From the NCBI RefSeq assembly GCF_023074835.1, contig NZ_JALLGW010000001.1, positions 2,604,001-2,668,000 of the forward strand: DNA of 64,000 nucleotides, read 5' to 3'. Positions 56,055 through 61,622 of the stretch are shown here, piece after piece (within the stretch, counting starts at the first letter, position 1; every line of letters starts with the position of its first letter). A program made the position numbers and the translations under genes. The DNA is from Halomarina salina (lineage in GTDB: Archaea > Halobacteriota > Halobacteria > Halobacteriales > Haloarculaceae). The notes below the pieces were generated by a model. The model saw only the letters and a list, made by a program, of their open reading frames with translations. It made no database searches and was not told where the DNA came from.

Positions 56055-56330
56055 TCAGTCGGTCGCGAACAGTTCGATTGTCCCGCTCGCCGAGACGACG
56101 ACACGGTAGCCCTCGTACGGAAAGCGGACGGTCGTCCCCCGGTCCCTGCAGACGACCGCGTCGAGCGCGTCCGGGTCGACGCTGTACGCCAGCGGTGTGA
56201 GGCTCGTCGGGTCGACGTTCTCGGCGACGGCGATAGCACGGACGAGCACGTCGCTCGGCAGGTCGACCGCCGGATCGAAGTGCGTCTCTAGCTCTGACAC
56301 CTCCTCCCCCTCGGTCTGGTTTCCGGTCAC
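56055..56330 (-). CDS. Single-domain HalOD1 protein
   Basis: 91 residues from GTG 56330, overlapping the stop of the DUF7344-like gene (GTGA). HalOD1 core: DVLVRAIAVAENVDPTSLTPLAYSVDPDALDAVV, then VRFPYEGYRVVVSASGTIEL. Third HalOD1 gene in this window. Coupling to a putative winged-helix protein suggests a regulatory pair. Confidence 0.75.
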   Translation of the reverse strand: MTGNQTEGEEVSELETHFDPAVDLPSDVLVRAIAVAENVDPTSLTPLAYSVDPDALDAVVCRDRGTTVRFPYEGYRVVVSASGTIELFATD

Positions 56331-56861: not shown

Positions 56862-57071
56862 ATGACCGAGTACACCACGGTCTCGATTCCGAAGGACCTC
56901 GCCGCACGGGTCGAAGAGACCATCGAGGGGACGAGTTTCTCCTCGACCAGCGACCTCGTCCGGTTCCTCCTCCGGAGCATCGTCATCCAGCACCAGCGCG
57001 AGGGCCAGCTCAGCGAGGCCGAGTTCGAGGAGATCGCCCAGCAGTTGCGGGACCTCGGCTACCTCCAGTAA
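56862..57071 (+). CDS. Ribbon-helix-helix (CopG-like) protein
   Basis: 69 residues from ATG 56862. The N-terminal strand TEYTTVSIPKDLAARVEETI and helix SFSSTSDLVRFLLRSIVIQHQ are typical of RHH DNA-binding proteins, here with a short helical tail (SEAEFEEIAQQLRDLGYL). A GTG two codons upstream (56856) is an alternative start. It is divergent from the DUF7344-HalOD1 pair across about 200 bases, so it may control it. Confidence 0.8.
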   Translation: MTEYTTVSIPKDLAARVEETIEGTSFSSTSDLVRFLLRSIVIQHQREGQLSEAEFEEIAQQLRDLGYLQ

Positions 57072-57132: not shown

Positions 57133-57528
57133 TCAGGTGACGGACTCCGACGGCGGCACGGCGTCGACAACCTGGACGGGGAGTTCCGACCCGGAGCGGT
57201 CGTACGCGACGACGGCGTCCCACGGGGGTACGGCGACGAACACCACCTCGTGGAGGTCGTCGCGCTTGCGTAGCCGGTCGTCGCCGTCCGGGTGGGAGAC
57301 GAACCGGCCCTGCGTCCGGGGACTGGCGAGGTCCATCCCGAACACCGCCTGGACCGAACCGCCGGCGTCCGGGTGGTAGAAGTGCGTGAACACCGGCGTC
57401 TCCGGGTCGAGGTCGGTGTCGAGGTCGGCGGCCGTCGTCACCGTCAACCCGACCGTCACCCCCTGTGGGTCCCGGTCGTCGGCCATCGAGAGGAGGACGT
57501 CGACGAGCCCGGTCGTGATGTAGACCAC
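57133..57528 (-). CDS. Hypothetical protein near the CHAT locus
   Basis: About 132 residues if started at GTG 57528 (VYITTGLVDVLLSMADDRDPQ onward). The sequence alternates strands and helices: GVTVGLTVTTAADLDTDLDPETPVFTHFYHP, VQAVFGMDLASPRTQGRFVSHPDGD, LHEVVFVAVPPWDAVVAYDRSG. It looks like a real alpha/beta protein of unknown family. The start is unsure: ATG 57486, GTG 57528 and TTG 57555 are all possible. An AT-rich promoter-like patch lies at 57590-57615. Confidence 0.55.
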   Translation of the reverse strand: MVYITTGLVDVLLSMADDRDPQGVTVGLTVTTAADLDTDLDPETPVFTHFYHPDAGGSVQAVFGMDLASPRTQGRFVSHPDGDDRLRKRDDLHEVVFVAVPPWDAVVAYDRSGSELPVQVVDAVPPSESVT

Positions 57529-57648
57529 ACGTCGCGGGAGGGCGCCGGGCGCCAAGAACGCGTCGGCTTCGAAGGACTTGTGAACACCGCGTAATGTTAA
57601 TTTATCATACAATATGCTTTTGAATGGTGGACGTTGTTGATTGACACG

Positions 57649-57780
57649 ATGGTGGGAGACAGCATGAAGTCGTTCCTCGTGTCGCACCCGAAACTGTTCG
57701 AACTCGCGTTCGCGGGGGCTGTGGCCCTTCCGCTCATCGGGGCACAGCTCAACGGTGTCACGGGGAACGCCGGCCCCTAG
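57649..57780 (+). CDS. 43-residue single-helix membrane peptide (DUF7503-like)
   Basis: ATG 57649, TAG 57778-57780. The peptide MVGDSMKSFLVSHPKLFEL is followed by one hydrophobic helix (AFAGAVALPLIGAQL) and NGVTGNAGP. It resembles the tiny haloarchaeal DUF7503 proteins (an xxFLxxHPxxxxxxF start) as I remember them. It is transcribed towards, and overlaps by 4 bases, the 3' end of the CHAT gene. An AT-rich TATA-like TAATTTATCATAC lies about 50 bases upstream (57598-57610). Confidence 0.65.
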   Translation: MVGDSMKSFLVSHPKLFELAFAGAVALPLIGAQLNGVTGNAGP

Positions 57781-60005
57781 AACTCGGCGTCGAGTAGTCC
57801 GCTGCTCCAGAAACACTCCCCGTCGAGGTAGACGGGACAGGAACTCATCTCCAGGAGCGACCGGAGTTCGCTCCGGCGAATCTCGTAGTCCGGAGTCGTA
57901 CTCCCGAACAGGAAGCTCTGCGTCAGGCCGTCGAGGACCGGCCGACCGAGACTCCCCATCCCGTAGAGGCGGTTGGGGTACAACTGGAACGACGCGTGGT
58001 ACGTGACGTCGTCGTCGGCCGCCCGACTGGTCGCAGGCTCGCAGCCGGTCCCGACAGCGTCCCCTGCACCACCGTCCGCCCGTCCGCAGTCGTCACCCGT
58101 CTCGTCCGCACGTCCACCGTGGGCGACTCCGCCGTCCGTCCGACCGTCTGCGGGTCGCTCCGCCTGTCGTTCGAGTCGGAGGACGAACGTCACGCCGCCC
58201 TCCGACTGGGCGATCTCCGTGTTACCGTCGCCGACGACGAGGTACTGCGCGCCGATGAGGCTCTCGTCGCTGGCGACGTCGAGCGCCGACTGGAGCGGGA
58301 ACCCGGCGTTCAGCATCCGTGCCAGCATTCGACCGACGGCCGTCGCCCCGGTGTTCACGACGTCGTCGACGGTGACGACGCCGCCGACGGCCCCCGCTTC
58401 GATGAGCGCCATCCCCTGCTGGTAGGAGGTACAGGCGTTGAGGAAGAACGCGTCGATACCGACCCCCGCCAGCGCGTTCGCGTCCAGGTGGCCGTCGTGG
58501 CAGCGGAACCCTCGCTCGTCGACGTGGCCGATGTAGTGGACGAAGTCCACGTCGGACTGGAAGACTGCGGCGAGGTCGGCGGTTGACGCGTCCCGGTGGA
58601 CGGTGACGTCGAAGGGCAGCGACTCGCGGGAGCCGTAGACGTCGCTCGCCGTCTGGTGTTCGGAGAGCATCGTCTGGTCGTTGCAGATGACGGCGATGGA
58701 GAGGTCGCCGTCCGTCGGTTCCTGGTTCAGTCGGTTGCGGAACGCGGCCGCGCTGACCTTGCTCGCACCGATGGGCACGTCGGGGGCGACCCACGCCTGT
58801 TCGAGCGAGTCGGTCCGCTCCGGACGGACGAGGCGCGGCGGCGTCGGTGGCGTCTTCGACCGGGTCGCGCCGTCGCTCATGAACGACTCGATGGCCGCCG
58901 ACTGCGCCTCTGCGAGCGTTATCTCCCGTGCGTTCGGCGTTCGAATCACCGAGAGGTCGTCGACGAGGTAGGGGAGCGTCTCCAGGTTCGACGGCGTCGG
59001 GGCGACGTGGCTCGTCAGTTTCCACGTCGGCATGTGCGGTTCGAGCGACTCGAACGGGACCGCCAGGTACGCCCGTAGCTGTTCGGGGAGCGAGCGGTCG
59101 TACGTCGCCGAGAGGTCGAAGGGGAGTTCGGGCTCGACGGCGCTGCGTTCGTGTAGGTCGACGGGGTAGTACCCTTCCGTCCGGACGATACAGTCCAGGA
59201 AGTGGACCTGCTTCAGCGTGCGTTCGACGCCCCGTTCGAACCCGTGCGGATCGTCGCTCTCGTCGGGGGTCGCGAGTGCGTGGTCGACGCCGTCGGCGAC
59301 CAGTCTCGGCTCGGACCCGGCGACCACCTCCGCGCCGAGGTAGTACGCCAGCGGCGCGACGACGTACGACGCCTCCAGCGTGGGCGGTATCTCGATGCGG
59401 ACGCCGGTGTCCGGGAGGACCAGGCCGTCGGGGACGTCGAGTTCGTCGCCGAGTTCCAGCGCCGGTGGATGTCCGCGCAGCGTCGGGAAGGAGCGCTCGG
59501 GGGTCGTCGTCTTCAGCGCCGACCCGAGGTGCGAGACGGCGGTCATCACGTCCGCCGGGTCGGTCGTGGTGGTGATGGTCGCGGCCGGTCGTTCGTGGTA
59601 CGAGCGGGCACCGACCAGCACCTCGCCCGTCTCGGCCAACGAGATGGACGTCGTGTCGCCGTCCGAGTCGACGGCGAGGGGACCGCGGACGCGGAGGTAG
59701 AGTTTGATGGGCGAGCAGAGTTCGACCCCGAACTCGCCCTCGGGGAGGTCGTGGCGCTCGAAGTGGCGGACCTGGTGGATGACCGTCCCGGTGTGGTCCC
59801 GGACGTACGTCTCAACTACCTCGGGGAAGGTGAGTTCCGCGACGTCGACGGCCACCGCCGCGTCGACGGGCGCGTCGAACAGGTCTCCGTCGACGGGACG
59901 GGGCGACACCTCGCGGTCGGTGAACAGGTCACAGCGCCGACGTTCGATGCTGTCTCGAACGCGGAGTTGCCCCTCCGGCCCCCGTTCGATGGCGACGAAG
60001 GTCAC
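57777..60005 (-). CDS. CHAT-domain (caspase-fold) protein
   Basis: 742 residues from GTG 60005; a longer start at 60128 would overlap the next gene and its extra residues lack character. The N-terminal about 300 residues form a beta-rich domain (ERGPEGQLRVRDSIERRRCDL, then FGVELCSPIKLYLRV). The CHAT core shows FVHYIGHVDERG (His494) and AFFLNACTSYQQG (Cys525), the expected catalytic dyad positions, with further strands before the C terminus and a low-complexity insertion (about 630-690). CHAT proteases in other systems cleave gasdermins or partner proteins during immunity. Substrate unknown. Confidence 0.75.
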   Translation of the reverse strand: MTFVAIERGPEGQLRVRDSIERRRCDLFTDREVSPRPVDGDLFDAPVDAAVAVDVAELTFPEVVETYVRDHTGTVIHQVRHFERHDLPEGEFGVELCSPIKLYLRVRGPLAVDSDGDTTSISLAETGEVLVGARSYHERPAATITTTTDPADVMTAVSHLGSALKTTTPERSFPTLRGHPPALELGDELDVPDGLVLPDTGVRIEIPPTLEASYVVAPLAYYLGAEVVAGSEPRLVADGVDHALATPDESDDPHGFERGVERTLKQVHFLDCIVRTEGYYPVDLHERSAVEPELPFDLSATYDRSLPEQLRAYLAVPFESLEPHMPTWKLTSHVAPTPSNLETLPYLVDDLSVIRTPNAREITLAEAQSAAIESFMSDGATRSKTPPTPPRLVRPERTDSLEQAWVAPDVPIGASKVSAAAFRNRLNQEPTDGDLSIAVICNDQTMLSEHQTASDVYGSRESLPFDVTVHRDASTADLAAVFQSDVDFVHYIGHVDERGFRCHDGHLDANALAGVGIDAFFLNACTSYQQGMALIEAGAVGGVVTVDDVVNTGATAVGRMLARMLNAGFPLQSALDVASDESLIGAQYLVVGDGNTEIAQSEGGVTFVLRLERQAERPADGRTDGGVAHGGRADETGDDCGRADGGAGDAVGTGCEPATSRAADDDVTYHASFQLYPNRLYGMGSLGRPVLDGLTQSFLFGSTTPDYEIRRSELRSLLEMSSCPVYLDGECFWSSGLLDAEF

Positions 60006-60081: not shown

Positions 60082-60756
60082 TCAGTCCAGTAGTCCGCGG
60101 AGCATCTGGAAGTACGCCGTCGGAGCACGCCGCCGCGACCCGCCGACTGCGTCCCGAATCGCGCTCGTCGCGCGGTCCATCACGCCCGGGCCGTGACCGA
60201 CGAGCAGTCGGTCGACGTCGTACGCCGTCAGTTCGCGCGGCGGCGTCATCCGGAGCATCGGGTGGACGCCGACGCGCTCGTCGCCCGCCCGGAAGTACTC
60301 GGCTCCCCCCAGCGCTTCGGGGACGACCAGCGTCTTCTCCTCGGGGTGGTAGAGGTACGCCTCGCTCCAGAACGGCGTGTCGTACAGCTGGAACACCTCG
60401 TACCCCGTGTCGCCGAGTTCGACGCCGATGTCCTCGACGGGTGCGAGGTAGTTCGGGTCGATGGACTCCATCCACGCCGGTCGATACACGGACACGTCGT
60501 GGCGACGGGCGAGCGCGTCGGCGTCGCGGTTGTGTCTGTCGAGGAGGACGACGCAGCCCGCGACGTCGCCGTACTCGTCGAGCAGGTCGTCGAGCCCCTC
60601 ACAGTCGACCGGGTCGACCAGGTAGAGACCCTCGTCGGTCACGAGCGCGTGACTCGCACGCTCCATCCGTTCGTCGGGGTACGCCAGCCAGCCGACGCCG
60701 CCGTCGAACCGGTCTATCTCCGCCATCGTCGTCGCTCCGGACCCTTTCATCGGCAT
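60082..60756 (-). CDS. Metallo-beta-lactamase-like fold protein lacking zinc ligands
   Basis: 224 residues. The pattern (VTDEGLYLVDPVDCEGLDDLL, AGCVVLLDRHNRDADALARRHD, TPFWSEAYLYHPEEKTLVVPEALG, RLLVGHGPGV) follows an MBL-type fold, but the usual HxHxDH is replaced by LLDRHNRDAD and only GHGPG remains, so catalysis is doubtful. A second in-frame ATG (60726, MAEIDRFDGG) may be the true start. It is upstream of the CHAT gene on the same strand, with a 76-base gap to GTG 60005. Confidence 0.65.
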   Translation of the reverse strand: MPMKGSGATTMAEIDRFDGGVGWLAYPDERMERASHALVTDEGLYLVDPVDCEGLDDLLDEYGDVAGCVVLLDRHNRDADALARRHDVSVYRPAWMESIDPNYLAPVEDIGVELGDTGYEVFQLYDTPFWSEAYLYHPEEKTLVVPEALGGAEYFRAGDERVGVHPMLRMTPPRELTAYDVDRLLVGHGPGVMDRATSAIRDAVGGSRRRAPTAYFQMLRGLLD

Positions 60757-60908
60757 ACGGGAATGGAGGGCCGCTCGGCGTATAAACGGTGGCGAGGGGG
60801 CAGAAACCCCACCGTTCTCGGCTGGCCAGTGACCCGGTTAGTCTCCTCGGCGTGCCCGGTCGCGCCGTCGGCCCCGTAGTTATTACCACACGGGACCGAC
60901 CCGCGGGT

Positions 60909-61622
60909 ATGACGTCGCTCCGGTGGCTCGCACTCGAGACGAAGTCCCTCGGCCGGATGGGTGAGTTCTACGACGAGCACCTCGACCTGCCGACCGAACG
61001 GGGCGACGAGGGAGAGCTGGTCGCGCAGGTCGGCGACACCGAACTCGTGTTCCGCCGGCCGAGCGGCGTCCCGCGCGGCGGCGTCCACACGCACTACGCC
61101 TTCTCGACGCCGTTCGACCGGTACGACGAGTGGTACGACCGCCTCTCCCGGCGGTTCGACCTCTCGGAGTTCACCTTCGGCGACGCGCGGTCGCTGTACT
61201 TCTACGACCCCGAGGGCAACTGCGTCGAGATCGGGCAGGTCGAACGCGACTCCTCCTCCCGCGCCGCGACTGACGCTCCCAGCGCGCTCACCGGCATCTT
61301 CGAGGTCGTCCTCGAGGTCGCCGACCTCGACCGCGCGGTGGCGTTCTACACCGAACTCGGTCTGGAGGTCGTCGACGAAGGCGAGGAGCGGCGACGCGTC
61401 AGGCTCACCGCAGGCCCGTTCGACCTGGAGCTCTGGGAACCACACCTCGGCATCGCCGACGCGCGCGGTGGACTCCACGTCGACCTCGGCGTCGGCGTCG
61501 CGGACCCGACCGAGACGGCCCAGCGGCTCCGGAGCCTCGCGGTCGACGTCGCTCCCGTCGACGACGGCGTCCGCGTCCGCGACGCGGACGGTCACTACGT
61601 CACGCTCCTCGAAGACGAGTGA
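60909..61622 (+). CDS. Two-domain VOC (glyoxalase/dioxygenase) protein
   Basis: 237 residues from ATG 60909. Two vicinal-oxygen-chelate units: LRWLALETKSLGRMGEFYDEHLDL with SLYFYDPEGNCVEIGQ, and FEVVLEVADLDRAVAFYTELGL with VRDADGHYVTLLE. Likely a metal-dependent dioxygenase or glyoxalase-like enzyme. Substrate unknown. TATA-like GTAGTTATTACC lies about 30 bases upstream. Confidence 0.87.
   Translation: MTSLRWLALETKSLGRMGEFYDEHLDLPTERGDEGELVAQVGDTELVFRRPSGVPRGGVHTHYAFSTPFDRYDEWYDRLSRRFDLSEFTFGDARSLYFYDPEGNCVEIGQVERDSSSRAATDAPSALTGIFEVVLEVADLDRAVAFYTELGLEVVDEGEERRRVRLTAGPFDLELWEPHLGIADARGGLHVDLGVGVADPTETAQRLRSLAVDVAPVDDGVRVRDADGHYVTLLEDE

Follow-up and report, generated by a model that had tools for sequence, protein, structure and literature searches.

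A predicted CHAT protease and a convergent single-helix micropeptide are kept side by side across most haloarchaea

Background

In the bacterial gasdermin systems a clan CD protease (caspase-like or CHAT) is paired with a membrane-acting protein, and SAVED-CHAT is part of a CRISPR-linked signalling cascade. Craspase, of type III-E CRISPR, combines a CHAT protein (TPR-CHAT, or Csx29) with a dedicated protein partner, Csx30. Here we analyse a 64,000-nucleotide stretch of the Halomarina salina genome (the window), in which the gene for a CHAT protein converges on that for a very small peptide, and we compare this pair with the systems above. The window CHAT has the protease fold in common with SAVED-CHAT (8tl0), but no SAVED domain was matched, and its partner is a convergent 43-residue membrane peptide. 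With Craspase (7y84, 7xsq, 8eey) the locus shares the CHAT fold and a dedicated protein partner; however, no TPR or Cas genes were found, the genes that recur near CHAT in the fetched loci include neither Cas7-11 nor Csx30, and in place of Csx30 the partner is a micropeptide with a single helix. The likeness to the gasdermin systems lies in the union of a clan CD protease with a membrane-acting protein, whereas the one-helix peptide is too short for a gasdermin fold, and its gene is convergent, has a promoter-like region of its own and lies in a syntenic locus instead of a patchy defence island. The peptide family is DUF7503 (PF24335) and the protein frequently encoded upstream of CHAT is DUF7504 (PF24336), both of them Pfam families of unknown function. 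Open-access PMC text yielded no paper that names DUF7503, and the open-access literature none combining 'CHAT domain' with haloarchaea. We found no description of a CHAT-peptide system, and the link between DUF7503 and CHAT is newly shown here.

Results

A divergent CHAT protein with a conserved His/Cys pair

The initial annotation had recognised a 742-residue CHAT protein in the window (Table 1), and this was right, though the usual profile misses the protein. It has no match to any Pfam, NCBIfam or PADLOC model, and no solved structure was found for it by sequence. Because PF12770 gives only a weak match below the cut-off on a paralogue (E = 0.034) and none on the window protein, the latter is, as judged from its sequence, a divergent subfamily of CHAT/clan CD; the CHAT label itself is based on the predicted fold together with this weak match. 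The AlphaFold (AF2) model obtained with 76 sequences (pLDDT 89.5, pTM 0.90) has a caspase-type alpha/beta fold and reveals no obvious membrane helix. Foldseek searches with the model retrieved SAVED-CHAT as the top match (8tl0; E = 1.8e-7, prob 1.00), as well as separase, Craspase TPR-CHAT and gingipain R, the matches at E <= 0.001 being nearly all to clan CD. Upstream starts are also present in the frame (783 aa from 60128), and alignment with relatives prefers the start near 60005.

Conservation was examined in 188 CHAT ORFs from the fetched loci, some of which are the same gene fetched twice. His494 and Cys525, the dyad that had been described as apparently intact, are invariant in this set, together with His490, Cys502 and Asn523, and in the AlphaFold model they stand at the ends of two central strands, ordered as is usual for clan CD. 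In the model the clan CD fold and its His/Cys pair are thereby intact, proteolysis itself being a prediction. Helix alpha-1 carries an acid at position 443 (Asp/Glu in 185/188) and another at position 449. In clan CD an alpha-1 acid contributes to the basic P1 preference of gingipain R and MALT1 (PMC4357240), and by analogy the acids at 443 and 449 point to Arg or Lys as the favoured P1 residue, with Glu449 assigned to the S1 pocket by secondary-structure position only. A caspase-type activity on Asp-ending substrates has been reported in Haloferax volcanii without clear gene homologues (Seth-Pasricha et al. 2012, PMC3615174). Since that activity is Asp-directed, whereas the acidic alpha-1 of the window CHAT points to Arg/Lys, CHAT would not explain it and is a candidate only.

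Table 1. Features of the CHAT-peptide locus, in coordinates of the window
Feature	Position	Strand	Evidence or remarks
RHH_1 (CopG-like) protein	56862-57071	+	PF01402, E=3e-4; 14 loci; 85-97% identical in best
131-aa protein, no Pfam match	57133-57528	-	13 loci; 55-81% identical in best related loci
AT-rich promoter-like stretch 5' of peptide gene	57592-57625	+	
Single-helix micropeptide, 43 aa, probable divergent DUF7503 member, ends Gly-Pro	57649-57780	+	
ctag, overlapping stop codons of both convergent genes	57777-57780	.	
CHAT protein, 742 aa, cysteine-protease-like (clan CD, caspase fold)	57777-60005	-	GTG start; fold and Foldseek
Putative catalytic Cys525 codon	58431-58433	-	motif LNACxS; 188/188; after strand 519-523
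Putative catalytic His494 codon	58524-58526	-	motif HYxGH; 188/188; after strand 488-492
Glu449 codon, helix alpha-1, candidate S1-pocket acid	58659-58661	-	Glu in 186/188
214-aa protein, CHAT-upstream, syntenic	60082-60726	-	homologues in 12 loci; weak Lactamase_B_5, E=0.18

The micropeptide and its gene

The peptide of the window (MVGDSMKSFLVSHPKLFELAFAGAVALPLIGAQLNGVTGNAGP) and its 4-base convergent overlap with the CHAT gene are confirmed as initially annotated. As to its proposed likeness to DUF7503, the window copy has no Pfam match at E <= 1, but it has the landmarks HPK, Phe, Gly and C-terminal GP in common with DUF7503 peptides, and four other peptides of the same genome, in the same position, match the family with E values of 1e-18 to 2e-12. 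Orthologues of the window peptide, 49-51% identical, occur in two Halomarina species, and a DUF7503 match was also obtained in Haloferax volcanii, which served as a control. For detection across loci we used an HMM, as a regular expression had missed many peptides; the seed contains the window peptide, whose own score is thus no evidence. A convergent peptide was found by HMM at 150 of the 188 CHAT ORFs and none at the other 38, and at two loci (L255, L266) a short hydrophobic convergent ORF missed by the HMM, with terminal GP, lies 1-2 bp from CHAT.

The window peptide has the form of the family, namely some 42-46 residues with a single hydrophobic helix preceded by P-[R/K], and usually a terminal GP. 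P-[R/K] stands right before the helix in all 145 distinct peptides. The [HN]P[RK] motif is present in 142 of them, and in 131 of these no R/K follows it. Terminal Pro is present in 128/145 (131/150 before duplicate removal), nearly always as Gly-Pro (~88%), and Natrialba-type relatives end in NGG-x-x. The gene is a conserved coding gene under purifying selection, as indicated by a median dN/dS of 0.27 over 151 non-independent pairs. Peptide genes (106 examined) have an AT content of about 0.67-0.85 at -70 to -26 in G+C-rich genomes, and this AT-rich upstream stretch makes it probable that the peptide is transcribed from a promoter of its own. Such a gene is easily overlooked: one RefSeq-annotated plasmid shows no gene at the expected stretch.

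The two genes end close to each other, with a median stop-to-stop gap of 2 bp over 150 CHAT-peptide pairs (-4 in 37 and 0 in 18), against a median of 64 bp and a minimum of 15 for background convergent pairs (n = 16, a small set counted by hand from three annotated haloarchaeal plasmid stretches). The 4-bp overlap, which is the commonest arrangement, is formed by four different tetramers (TTAG 14, CTAA 10, TTAA 7 and CTAG 6), which speaks for repeated compaction and not for one inherited sequence.

Linkage of the peptide to CHAT across haloarchaea

Among 116 haloarchaeal genomes the CHAT profile was found in 103 and DUF7503 in 95, all of the latter CHAT-bearing, since the family is absent from 13/13 CHAT-less genomes. 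The initial annotation had asked whether the peptide is kept beside CHAT homologues, and it is, nearly always adjacent: 127 of 129 peptides are convergent with a CHAT gene (125 with a listed CHAT and two more in genomes G032 and G088), and the remaining two (in G049 and at the sixth CHAT of H. salina) are encoded on the CHAT strand, at distances of 1.4 and 2.1 kb. CHAT occurs without DUF7503 in eight genomes, two of which (G048 and G072) hold CHAT fragments only. These fragments were located at G072:C94:13109-13948 and G048:C12:4275-5209, and the peptide is missing in both genomes. No peptide is hence much farther than 2 kb from a CHAT gene and CHAT is sometimes alone, an asymmetry that favours a peptide depending on the protease over one restraining it.

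The best 80 contig matches were all haloarchaeal, and CHAT was present on 25 haloarchaeal plasmid records. On a tree of 181 CHAT sequences (FastTree, with several long branches) peptide presence needs only 8 changes. One clade (clade B; L089-L105 and L108) accounts for 18 peptide-less CHATs, and 16 other CHATs also lack the peptide. Clade B differs near the active-site motifs (Asp508 to Ser/Ala, Gln530 to Glu), and no recurring substitute peptide was found beside its 18 members. The existence of full-length CHATs without a peptide means that CHAT has other substrates or that the peptide is accessory. Comparison of partner distances in 11 multi-copy genomes gave a modest to weak signal of coevolution, with r = 0.21 for true neighbours against 0.064 +- 0.078 for swapped paralogues (65/2000 permutations).

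The genome of H. salina has seven CHAT genes, six with a peptide close by. Five of these, including that of the window, have a convergent 3' peptide (window, L002, L003, L004 and L008). At the sixth (L005) an IS200/605-type element occupies the 3' end, and the peptide is encoded some 2.1 kb upstream in the same orientation; the seventh (L006, the paralogue with the weak PF12770 match) is short and without peptide. At L175 7599-10299 the IS200/605-type genes seen at the 3' end of a CHAT gene comprise a TnpB-like fragment and a tnpA/tnpB-like pair, with a peptide gene about 2.1 kb upstream and also on the CHAT strand. At L176 5252-10759 (C1 2.891-2.897 Mb of the same genome) a DUF7504 gene separates two complete CHAT-peptide modules in head-to-head orientation.

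The occurrence of the arrangement at more than 120 loci, the purifying selection and the promoter-like region argue that it is not due to chance, and the peptide-CHAT pairing extends across most salt-loving archaea.

Gene neighbourhood

In the window the CHAT and peptide genes are followed by those for the 131-residue and RHH proteins, with the proteins at 60082-60726 and 60849-61622 on the other side. This order is kept in Halomarina, Haladaptatus and Halorussus, and in Halomicrococcus it holds for most of the genes. With regard to the neighbours named in the initial annotation, the RHH protein and the protein at 57133-57528 are indeed syntenic in some 13 related loci, but the DUF7344/HalOD1 pair is kept only in Halomarina. 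The HalOD1 protein (56055-56330) resembles the NCBIfam disk-determining factor DdfA, scoring 58.8 bits where the cut-off is 70. Connected components of neighbours, which mix in antisense ORFs, served as a lead only.

A DUF7504 protein, with a predicted KaiC/RecA-like fold, is encoded directly upstream of CHAT in 61/186 loci. We considered it as an obligatory third member and rejected this, as it is found upstream at those 61 loci only and belongs to a multi-copy family that occurs in 32/32 genomes tested, CHAT-less ones included. At one locus (L130) the upstream protein is a DUF7504 fused to HalOD1 domains (Pfam), and at another (L144) it is similarly long. An AAA/Cdc6-like ATPase takes the upstream position in 12 loci, and at L164, L168, L170 and L173, where it lies directly upstream, it has a winged-helix-like end.

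A role in immunity, which the initial annotation had mentioned for CHAT proteases elsewhere, is not borne out, and we rejected the reading of the locus as a defence island: none of seven window proteins scanned had a PADLOC match, no phage or viral relatives were found, and gene order is kept across several genera.

Discussion

The results taken together make it very probable that CHAT and the peptide act jointly, the one as a protease and the other as the membrane partner dedicated to it. What the partner does is a matter of more graded judgement. That the peptide is a CHAT substrate is plausible, and to a two-gene module, in which it would be dedicated to a protease predicted to cleave it, as membrane substrate or effector, we give a probability slightly under even. 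In such a module the peptide would be made separately and located in the membrane with its N-terminus inside. CHAT would be activated, possibly in the context of DUF7504 (KaiC-like, about one third of the loci) or of the AAA/Cdc6-like ATPase (12 loci), and would then cut the peptide after its invariant Pro-Arg/Lys at the membrane edge, thereby changing or freeing the membrane helix. The mRNAs of the overlapping convergent genes would be mutually antisense, so that one may go up as the other goes down. The correspondence between the acidic alpha-1 of CHAT and the single invariant Arg/Lys of the peptide at the membrane edge is suggestive only, because the positive-inside rule could also account for Arg/Lys at that place. 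A point against the module is that the genes of known protease-effector pairs mostly form co-directional operons instead of converging. Its fullest form, a minimal archaeal protease-membrane effector circuit in which the cut after Pro-Arg/Lys sets free either a membrane-active helix or a short tail that is secreted and the convergent overlapping transcripts act as a switch, is tentative and in our judgement rather unlikely.

Strict linkage would also fit a peptide that anchors or regulates CHAT, recruiting it to the membrane or holding it inactive through the conserved C-terminus or the N-terminal region, and the terminal Gly-Pro, the conserved N-terminal half of the peptides and the CHAT model lacking an obvious membrane helix would agree with this. 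We nevertheless consider it doubtful, as peptide-less CHATs should be rare if the peptide were an essential inhibitor, yet the 18 of clade B and 16 others exist, and peptides without CHAT should be tolerated, yet none was found. The C-terminal region of the peptide speaks to a different possibility, that of a precursor in which the helix serves as a signal sequence with A-x-A at its end and the Gly-Pro tail of 8-10 residues is secreted as a short signal; CHAT would then act either on the leader or in the response. An A-x-A-like stretch precedes the tail in 136/145 peptides by a loose pattern and in 87/145 by a strict one, and would also fit a cleavable signal sequence, which is a point against the substrate reading. 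The tail is moreover of fixed length (93/103 HP-motif peptides have 30-32 residues from His to the C-terminus), and its sequence varies between paralogues while helix and end are constant. Such a precursor is unlikely all the same, given that no receptor or exporter is kept among the recurring neighbours, that the loose pattern is easily satisfied by Ala-rich helix ends and that the Natrialba-type tails have a different terminus.

The small size and hydrophobicity of the peptide, the convergent overlap and the constant proximity to CHAT would also suit a pair of the type I-like toxin-antitoxin kind, with a toxic peptide removed by the CHAT protein and by the CHAT transcript, which would extend antisense over the peptide gene; the several copies in some genomes and the presence of CHAT on plasmids are in line with this. 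The gene order of the window is, however, kept across genera, unlike that of mobile addiction modules, and we regard such a pair as quite improbable. Least credible of all is a peptide gene that hitch-hikes, being kept by shared transcription ends. Proximity alone would suggest it, and the initial annotation had allowed that the peptide might simply be a neighbour, but joint presence and absence over 116 genomes and the repetition of the pair in paralogues at different genomic places, beside different upstream genes, effectively exclude it.

Conclusions

By their association at these loci two families of unknown function gain a shared context, and an orphan haloarchaeal caspase-fold protein can be tested as a protease, with the peptide as the evident substrate to try first. 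The old question of the role of caspase-type proteins in archaea thereby receives a concrete gene set. If the proposed effector circuit is real, most of the class Halobacteria would possess it.
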